Shown piece after piece: positions 42,085 through 62,429 of a stretch of DNA of 64,000 bases. The DNA is from Rodentibacter heidelbergensis (GTDB taxonomy: Bacteria; Pseudomonadota; Gammaproteobacteria; Enterobacterales; Pasteurellaceae), in the NCBI RefSeq assembly GCF_002000125.1, contig NZ_MLHH01000023.1, forward strand, positions 1 to 64,000. The letters are read 5' to 3'. The position numbers and the translations under genes were made by a program. The first letter of the stretch is position 1. Each line of letters opens with the position of its first letter. Under the pieces are notes generated by a model. It saw only the letters and a program-made list of their open reading frames with translations. It did not search any database and had not been told where the DNA came from.

Positions 42085-42186
42085 TATAATCTGCACCCTA
42101 TTTGGTGCCAATTATGGCGTATTATTCACTCACGCGGTGTAAGGAGAAAGTTCTTATAGCGGCGTGGCTTCATTTTGAGGTTTTCT
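42085..42186 (+). promoter_or_regulatory. rpmE promoter and structured leader
   Basis: A TATAAT at 42085-42090 gives an expected transcript start near 42097. The leader holds GCACC/GGTGC (42093-42097 and 42104-42108) and CACGC/GCGTG (42131-42135 and 42162-42166), enclosing an AAGGAG that is not the rpmE ribosome-binding site; that one is GAGG at 42177-42180. Ribosomal-protein L31 leaders are known in gamma-proteobacteria, and this may be one. Confidence 0.45.
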
Positions 42187-59307: not shown

Positions 59308-62004
59308 TTAATTGTATTTGGCACGGCTACCGTGGCAATGTTTATACTTTTTACCCGAACCACAAGGGCAAGGCTCATTACGGCCGACACGGCGATCAGC
59401 ATAATCCTCTTCCTGTGTTTCGGCGTGATTCTCCCCTATCGGGCGATGGGTTTGGCTTTCTCGCTCTGCCATTTCTTGACGAAGACGTTCTGCCTCTTCA
59501 ATCTCTTCTTGGGTTCTTACTCGAACACGGGTTAATGTTGTGATCACATGGTGTTTTAAAGAATCTAACATTTCCGTAAACATACGGAATGACTCTTTTT
59601 TATACTCTTGTTTCGGATCTTTTTGAGCATAACCACGCAAATGGATCCCTTGACGGAGATAATCCATCGCCGCTAAATGTTCTTTCCAAAGCTCATCAAG
59701 AGTTTGTAGCATCACCCCTTTTTCGAAATGACGCATACTTTCTTCACCCACTAAGGCTTCTTTCTCTTGGTATTCTTTTTCAGCAATATCAATAATGCGT
59801 TCACGCAGATTTTCTTCATGAAGATGATTATCTTCTTCTAACCAATGTTCGATAGGCAATACCATGCCAAACTCTTGTGCCAATCGCTCTTCAAGCCCTT
59901 TGACATCCCATTGTTCCTCTAAGGATTGTGGCGGGATATATTGGTCGATAACATTATTGAACACATCATGGCGAATAGCCTTGACCGTTTCGGAAATATC
60001 GTCGTTATCCAATAAATAATTGCGTTGCTCATAAATCGCATGACGTTGATCGTTGGCGACATCATCATATTCAAGGAGATTTTTACGACCATCAAAATGG
60101 AAAGCTTCCACTTTCGCTTGGGCAGAAGCAATCACTTTTGCCAACATTTTGGATTCCATGGCTTCACCCGGCACGGTGAAGGCTTTACGCATTAAGTTGA
60201 GTTTGCCCTCATTGAGGTAAATTCGCATCAAACCGTCTTCCAAAGACAGGTAGAAACGAGAAGAACCCGGATCCCCTTGACGACCGGAACGACCACGCAA
60301 CTGGTTGTCGATACGGCGTGATTCGTGACGCTCCGTACCAATAATATGTAAACCGCCGGCTTTCATCACGATATCGTGATTTTTCTCCCACTCGGCTTTT
60401 AACGCATCAAGTTGCGCTTGGGTAGGATTGTCTAATTTGGCTGCCTGAGCTTTCCAGTTACCGCCAAGGATAATATCCGTTCCCCGTCCGGCCATATTGG
60501 TGGCAATCGTCACCGCCCCCGGGAAACCCGCTTCTGCAACAATTTCAGCTTCTTGTTGGTGGAATTTTGCATTTAACACATTGTGTTTAATGCCCGCTTT
60601 ATCCAATGCTTTCGACAAAACTTCCGATTTTTCCACCGAAATCGTCCCCACCAATACCGGTTGTTGGCGTGCCACACAATCTTTAATATCATCAATAATC
60701 GCATTGAATTTGTATTCTTCATTTTCAAACATCAAGTCTGTGCGATCATCTCGAATCATTGGGCGGTTTGTCGGAATGACGACCGTTTCTAACCCATAAA
60801 TTTGTTGGAACTCAAAGGCTTCCGTATCTGCCGTCCCCGTCATACCCGCCAATTTTTCATACAAACGGAAGTAATTTTGGTAAGAAATGGAGGCGACAGT
60901 TTGGTTTTCACTTTTAATCTCAACCCCTTCTTTGGCTTCAATCGCTTGGTGTAAACCGTCAGACCAACGGCGTCCTGCCATCGTCCGTCCGGTATGTTCA
61001 TCAACAATGACGATTTCGCCGTCTTTCACAATATAATCCACATCACGCTCAAATAAGGTATGTGCACGCAATGCCGCCATAATATGGTGCAATAAAACAA
61101 TACGGCCCGGTGAATAAAGAGAATCCCCCTCCGGCATTAACCCTTGTTCAATGAGCCAATTTTCCACTTTTTCCTGACCACGTTCGGTTAAGTGAGCTTG
61201 TTTGGATTTGAGATCTAAGGTGAAATCCCCTTCCCCTTGATATTCATCGGAATCTTCTTTTTCTTGCTTAATTAAACTTGGAATGAGTTTATTCACCGCA
61301 ATGTAAAGATCGGAACTATCTTCTGCCTGACCGGAAATAATTAACGGTGTACGGGCCTCATCAATTAAGATGGAATCCACCTCATCCACTAAGGCATAAC
61401 CTAAAGTTCGTTGGAAACGCTCTTCTTTCGAATGAGCTAAATTATCACGCAAATAATCAAAACCCAATTCACTGTTTGTGGCGTAAGTAATATCTGCAGC
61501 GTAAGCGGCACGTTTTGCTTCAGGCGGTAAACCCGGAATGTTCACGCCGACACTTAATCCTAAAAATTCAAATAACGGGCGATTGGTTTCTGCGTCACGA
61601 CGAGCTAAATAGTCGTTCACTGTCACCACATGTACCCCTTTTCCTTCAAGGGCGATTAAATAACAAGGGAGTGTGGCGGTTAAGGTTTTCCCTTCACCGG
61701 TACGCATTTCGGCAATACAGCGGTTAGTCAACACCATTCCCCCAATCAGCTGAACATCAAAATGACGCATGCCTAATACCCGTTTACTCGCTTCACGCAC
61801 GGTGGCAAAGGCTTCAGGTAGGATGTCTTGCAAGGTTTCACCCGCACTCAAACGCTGGCGAAACTCATCGGTTTTCGCGCGAAGCTGTTCATCACTTAAA
61901 GCTTCAAATTCAGGCTCTAATTGATTAATTTTGCTCACTTGTTTTTTAAGTTTGCGTAAAATGCGGTCGTTACGGCTACCAAAAATTTTCGTTAAAATGC
62001 TCAT
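59308..62004 (-). CDS. secA: Preprotein translocase ATPase SecA
   Basis: SecA drives protein export through SecYEG. The 898-residue protein has Walker A in [13 protein letters not shown] (about 102-114), DEAD-box [16 protein letters not shown] (about 209-224), the NBD2 region [12 protein letters not shown], and the C-terminal zinc SecB-binding motif [14 protein letters not shown] (about 882-895). The ATG at 62004 (AGAAAGAGAAATT upstream) gives [14 protein letters not shown]; 62073 would overlap the regulatory leader. Upstream lies a secM-like arrest gene and an alternating-hairpin leader. Confidence 0.97.
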
Positions 62005-62039
62005 AATTTCTCTTTCTAAATCATTTGTTAAAATTAAGG

Positions 62040-62065
62040 AATGAGTGAAATGTTGCTCACTCATT
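62040..62065 (-). promoter_or_regulatory. Hairpin in secA leader
   Basis: AATGAGTGA (62040-62048) and TCACTCATT (62057-62065) form a 9-bp stem between secM and secA, about 36 bases before the secA ATG. Confidence 0.6.
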
Positions 62066-62085
62066 GTCATCATTAATGGTGTGAA

Positions 62086-62131
62086 CCCTTTAATTTCATT
62101 GTGTTAAAGGGACAGCGTCTATGAAATTAAA
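62086..62131 (-). promoter_or_regulatory. Mutually exclusive hairpins at the secM stop codon
   Basis: On the minus strand, TTTAATTTCAT (62131-62121, holding the secM stop codon) can pair with ATGAAATTAAA (62099-62089), an 11-bp stem. The alternative CCCTTTAA (62111-62104) with TTAAAGGG (62093-62086) is an 8-bp stem. The two share bases 62089-62093, so they cannot both form. A ribosome stalled at the RAGP codons would cover the first arm and favour the second hairpin. Confidence 0.6.
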
Positions 62132-62429
62132 TGAGCAAAGGGCCGGCGCGAATAGGGGCTTGACGATTGAATACCGCCACCACAAAGTGCGGTTGAAAAT
62201 CGGGTTGTTTTTTTTCGAAATAGGCTGTCGGAAAAGGTTGGAGGGAAGGTCGTTGCACATGGCAAACCACCTTTGCCCTTTCCAACACCTGTTGGATAGA
62301 AACCTCAGAAGAATAATTTTCTGCCCGGTTATTTTCTAAACTTTGCGTATTAGGCAAAGCAAAAATCGCGATAACACTTAATAGTAATCGCGACCAAAAA
62401 TAAGGGGGGCTTTTGCCTAAAATCATCAT
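62127..62429 (-). CDS. secM: SecM-like secretion monitor with RAGP arrest motif
   Basis: A 100-residue exported arrest peptide. A signal/anchor segment (WSRLLLSVIAIFALP, about 12-26) comes first, then a poorly conserved middle and the C-terminus QAPIRAGPLLI (about 90-100). Arrest motifs of SecM proteins end in (H/Q)xPIR(A/G)xP in Pasteurellaceae and GIRAGP in E. coli, so stalling at Pro97 is expected. The gene lies directly before secA, as secM does. Either of two adjacent ATGs (62429, 62426) may start it; the ribosome-binding site is weak. H. influenzae HI0908 is the likely counterpart. Confidence 0.85.
   Translation of the reverse strand: MMILGKSPPYFWSRLLLSVIAIFALPNTQSLENNRAENYSSEVSIQQVLERAKVVCHVQRPSLQPFPTAYFEKKQPDFQPHFVVAVFNRQAPIRAGPLLI

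Follow-up and report, generated by a model that had tools for sequence, protein, structure and literature searches.

Analysis of a 64,000-nt stretch of Rodentibacter heidelbergensis DNA (hereafter the window) suggests that the region between secM and secA is a SecM arrest-peptide leader that most likely controls secA by direct masking, as in E. coli; a probability of about 0.8 was assigned to this reading. The end of secM is predicted to pair with the start of secA in a long-range helix, and the 5' arm of this helix lies where a ribosome stalled on secM would stand. The features considered are as follows.

62127..62429, minus strand: secM, 100 amino acids, SecM_small, C-terminal end APIRAGPLLI-stop
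62139..62150, minus strand: RAGP codons, the arrest site by homology with E. coli SecM
62123..62137, minus strand: predicted masking helix, 5' arm UGCUCAuuUAAUUUC (the end of the secM coding sequence with its stop codon, plus the next 4 nt)
61998..62010, minus strand: predicted masking helix, 3' arm GAAAUUAUGAGCA (spanning the secA start codon, from the 3' edge of the SD into the first codons)
62121-62131 (5' arm) and 62089-62099 (3' arm), minus strand: 11-bp stem TTTAATTTCAT/ATGAAATTAAA, an inverted repeat
62104..62111 and 62086..62093, minus strand: 8-bp stem CCCTTTAA/TTAAAGGG, corresponding to the apparent spacer hairpin CCCUUUAA/UUAAAGGG; predicted probability 0.96
62040..62065, minus strand: third hairpin, 10 bp, AAUGAGUGAG/UUUCACUCAUU, apparently a second spacer hairpin; predicted probability 0.96
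59308..62004, minus strand: secA, conserved start MSILTKIF, ATG at 62004
42131-42181, plus strand: L31-Gammaproteobacteria ribosomal protein leader, 53.7 bits

Profile searches identified both genes. The secM product matched the Pfam profile PF10818 (6e-23; 81.9 bits against a curated cut-off of 26.1) and the NCBIfam profile NF038363 (88.5 bits against a curated cut-off of 45), and its whole-protein match, above both cut-offs, places it in SecM_small. The domains of SecA were complete in the Pfam/NCBIfam profile search. The secM gene is an upstream ORF directly 5' of secA on the same strand, with 122 nt between its stop codon and the secA ATG, and carries the IRAGP arrest motif near its C-terminus. 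Its N-terminus, KSPPYFWSRLLLSVIAIFALP, looked like an export signal by eye. The secA frame is open 5' of the conserved start (62005-62073), and the third hairpin lies inside this open part. A farther-upstream secA start at the in-frame ATGs 62073 or 62064 was rejected as the main start since neither has an SD at proper spacing and since, among the genomes compared, the frame is open only in the window genome and three close relatives (L082, L083 and L085).

Within secM, the coding strand carries ACCGCACTT (62185-62193), the core of a DNA uptake signal sequence, which encodes part of PHF; the encoded Phe is roughly one residue away from where F150 lies in the E. coli arrest motif. Of 140 secM regions from Pasteurellaceae, 75 contain the core. 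Relative to the RAGP codons, 68 matches fall at -50 to -41 nt, and almost all of them share one frame. The other uptake-sequence dialect, ACAAGCGGT, occurs in 33 of the 140 regions at -70 to -61. The published 'coevolution' of SecM and uptake sequences (PMC12616744) may simply reflect the core embedded in secM.

The predicted masking helix comprises 13 bp and a 2-nt bulge (UGCUCA-uu-UAAUUUC with the 3' arm), its arms being about 110 nt apart. It is present in the minimum free energy structure of the leader, and its two halves have probabilities of 0.90 and 0.91 in the free leader ensemble; these absolute values need caution because the same folding method, applied to E. coli as a positive control, did not return the known helix as the minimum free energy structure. 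When the long helix was forbidden, the unpaired probability rose from 0.29 to 0.52 for the ribosome-binding site (RBS) and from 0.04 to 0.39 for the AUG. Taken as a whole, the leader folds more stably than expected by chance: z was -2.93, and 1 shuffle in 200 did as well. The search of the leader against Rfam gave no match at the gathering threshold, nor any at E<=5 beyond chance.

In E. coli SecM the ribosome stalls with Gly in the P-site and Pro in the A-site (PMC7897499, PMC10951299), and its leading edge is then 15-17 nt downstream (PMC7897499). By this rule the leading edge falls at 62129-62127 in the window, and the stalled ribosome would cover the 62137-62130 part of the masking helix. 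In the ensemble model, a leading edge placed at +12 to +16 from the P-site lowered the probabilities of the helix halves to 0.00 and 0.04-0.21 and raised the unpaired probability of the AUG from 0.04 to 0.25-0.33, with a moderate opening of the SD (0.44 to about 0.6). On average in the clade of the window, pairing of the helix begins to fall once the leading edge is at about +10 to +12; thus the helix is within reach of a ribosome at RAGP, but not of one that stands several codons upstream. In 33 of 43 genera, stalling was predicted to make the RBS more accessible (p 0.001), though part of this effect follows from blocking any bases.

The helix, its positions, its conservation in the clade and its predicted opening come from computation; that the ribosome stalls, that export releases it and that SecA synthesis responds is inferred from E. 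coli SecM. Under the masking model, the end of secM, the stop codon and the four bases that follow would pair with the secA start in the resting mRNA, so concealing the AUG as well as the 3' edge of the SD, and GAAAUUAUGAGC would be paired unless a ribosome stalls. The hairpins at 62086-62111 and 62040-62065 would serve as spacers between the arms. Poor Sec export would make the ribosome stall with the Gly of RAGP in the P-site, its leading edge covering GCUCAUU, one half of the 5' arm; the other half, rich in A and U, would be too weak to hold, the secA start would open and SecA would be made.

Comparison with relatives supports this helix in the clade of the window (37 genomes of four genera, g1, g19, g22 and g39) and in some other genera. 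All 140 Pasteurellaceae genomes searched contain secA, each with an upstream ORF with a RAGP-like end. Pairing between the secM end and the secA start was predicted in 37 of 37 clade genomes, with 9.6-15.6 expected pairs; by prediction and clade conservation, a helix over the secA start would have its 5' arm under the stalled ribosome. The spacers of the clade are unrelated in sequence, span 85-153 nt from the Pro codon to the AUG and contain one or two unrelated hairpins. RNAalifold analysis of 16 leaders returned the 13-bp masking helix as the main feature and, besides it, a spacer hairpin showing two-sided changes. By a fixed count, 96.6% of masking-helix cells were paired, against 37-57% when the partner was slid by 1-3 columns. 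Within the masking helix, only one pair changed on both sides, from G-C to A-U in 5-6 rows and without altering either protein; this is probably one event, and column shuffles reached the observed covariation score in 43 of 500 cases. Covariation alone is therefore weak.

A cross-genus permutation of duplexes between the secM end and the secA RBS gave z -2.7. Across 43 Pasteurellaceae genera, no family-wide excess of pairing was found by the synonymous null (p 0.19) or by the chimera test (p 0.89). As the family-wide tests are mixed, the claim of masking is limited to the clade of the window. A direct masking helix is clear in this clade and in, for example, g2, g15 and g37, but not in g3, g23 and g33. 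Given the missing family-wide excess, and given that the E. coli helix is not the minimum free energy structure by this method although duplex folding of its arms shows it, absence in some genera may be real or may be a failure of prediction. If the absence is real, part of the Pasteurellaceae may, though this seems rather unlikely, keep SecM arrest and relay it to secA by a different RNA route.

Variants of the arrest motif were also observed. In one clade genome (L092, G126) SecM has IRASP instead of IRAGP, and its masking helix is the weakest of the clade at 9.6 expected pairs; a joint relaxation of arrest motif and helix is possible. Three genomes of other genera (L128 of g14, L140 of g28 and L148 of g7) lack RAGP and encode RGSP at the same place, a variant that stalls in Mannheimia succiniciproducens (PMC10987492); in their folds the secM end is still paired with the secA start region.

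The earlier note on this DNA had described a secM-secA leader in which a stalled SecM ribosome would switch the structure, and this part stands; the switch it proposed, in which the two stems (11 bp and 8 bp) would alternate and the third hairpin might relay the change to secA, appears very improbable. Both inverted repeats are on the minus strand where it had placed them. The secM stop codon (TAA at 62129-62127) lies within the 11-bp stem, whose 3' arm is also used by the 8-bp stem. The 8-bp stem is about 82 nt from the secA ATG, in line with the distance in the earlier note, and the third hairpin is real, with a predicted probability of 0.96. No perfect stem in the 163-nt leader is longer than 11 bp, a length that exceeds the longest stem of 99% of 300 dinucleotide shuffles (mean 6.5 bp; 11 bp reached in 1%), although the repeat was picked after the fact; a stem of 8 bp was reached in 15% of shuffles. 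By these frequencies, such a composition would rarely give the 11-bp repeat, whereas the 8-bp stem by itself is nothing out of the ordinary. The 11-bp stem rose to 0.25-0.39 when either the masking helix or the 8-bp stem was forbidden. Against such a relay, the probability of the 11-bp stem was about 0.00 in the free ensemble and at most 0.05 at every modelled position of the stalled ribosome, and forbidding it in constrained folding left secA accessibility unchanged. Neither stem touches the secA RBS. A ribosome paused at RAGP, which had been expected to cover the first 5' arm, would cover only about 3-4 of its 11 nt. Conservation of the 11-bp arms did not extend beyond the two closest relatives (L082 and L083), each of which has lost one pair to a mismatch; the stem is absent from the other 12 genomes of the genus and from the other genera compared. 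The 5' arm of this stem overlaps that of the masking helix. In the model, the 11-bp stem looks like an unpopulated repeat and the 8-bp stem and third hairpin look like spacers. How the signal reaches secA, left as a question in the earlier note, is answered by the long helix, which joins the secM end directly to the secA start.

The third hairpin followed by a T-rich tract could alternatively be a terminator between secM and secA, with control by transcription attenuation. The single terminator-like match (62065-62040) fits such a reading, but 0.6 matches were expected by chance, three of the hairpin's pairs are G-C and the T tract is interrupted (CCTTAATTTT), and the hairpin is not a sequence element common to the relatives. 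A terminator alternating with an antiterminator was not found in the leader, the match being at chance level and the alternating stem unpopulated, and this explanation is scarcely probable. It is improbable, to a somewhat lesser degree, that no RNA switch exists, the complementarity being due to chance, the arms being conserved for the LLI-stop coding of secM and the SD and start coding of secA, and the two genes being linked by mere translational coupling. The thin covariation and the missing family-wide excess are in keeping with this, and the conservation of the arms could come partly from coding and SD constraints. However, the noncoding bases just 3' of the secM stop (TTTC/TTTT) are fixed despite the divergence of the spacer that follows; in one genome (L110) a different SD is re-paired by a different secM end (CUCUUAAAA/UUUUAAGAG); and the duplex of the window stood out against synonymous codon recoding with tail shuffling (p 0.01).

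With this helix, the exact pairing by which the RAGP stall would signal to secA on the E. coli principle is now defined. The relatives suggest how such a switch may evolve: the two pairing ends are kept, and the spacer between them is replaced or loses whole hairpins. As SecM is ubiquitous in Pasteurellaceae and the masking helix is not evident everywhere, the result also marks genera for study of the output step. The short SecM class of Pasteurellales has already been described (PMC10987492); a description of a secA-masking RNA for the Pasteurellales SecM_small group was not found in the literature searched.

The earlier note had set this leader apart from that of E. coli, having missed the predicted long-range helix, which is itself the E. 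coli arrangement. As in E. coli secM-secA, an upstream ORF has RAGP a few codons before its stop, and here by prediction a helix joins the secM end to the secA translation start and the stalled ribosome stands over the 5' arm (PMC10987492, PMC7897499). Duplex folding of the E. coli arms (CUCAACGCCUC/GGGGCGUUUGAG) gave -17.7 kcal/mol, in an arrangement that matches the published model (PMC10987492, PMC7897499); the helix of the window is weaker and AU-rich, at -13.5 kcal/mol. SecM has 100 amino acids in the window and 170 in E. coli. In the window the helix has the secA AUG at its centre and takes in secA codons; in E. coli it lies on the SD upstream. The spacer from the Pro codon to the AUG is 137 nt with two hairpins in the window against 79 nt in E. 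coli. The start-codon-centred helix and the two spacer hairpins are most likely local variations on a known regulator. In the VemP-secDF2 and uDF_RQH-secDF2 leaders, likewise, a ribosome stalled on an arrest upstream ORF frees the downstream SD from a stem (PMC10987492); these leaders differ from that of the window in arrest motif and target gene.
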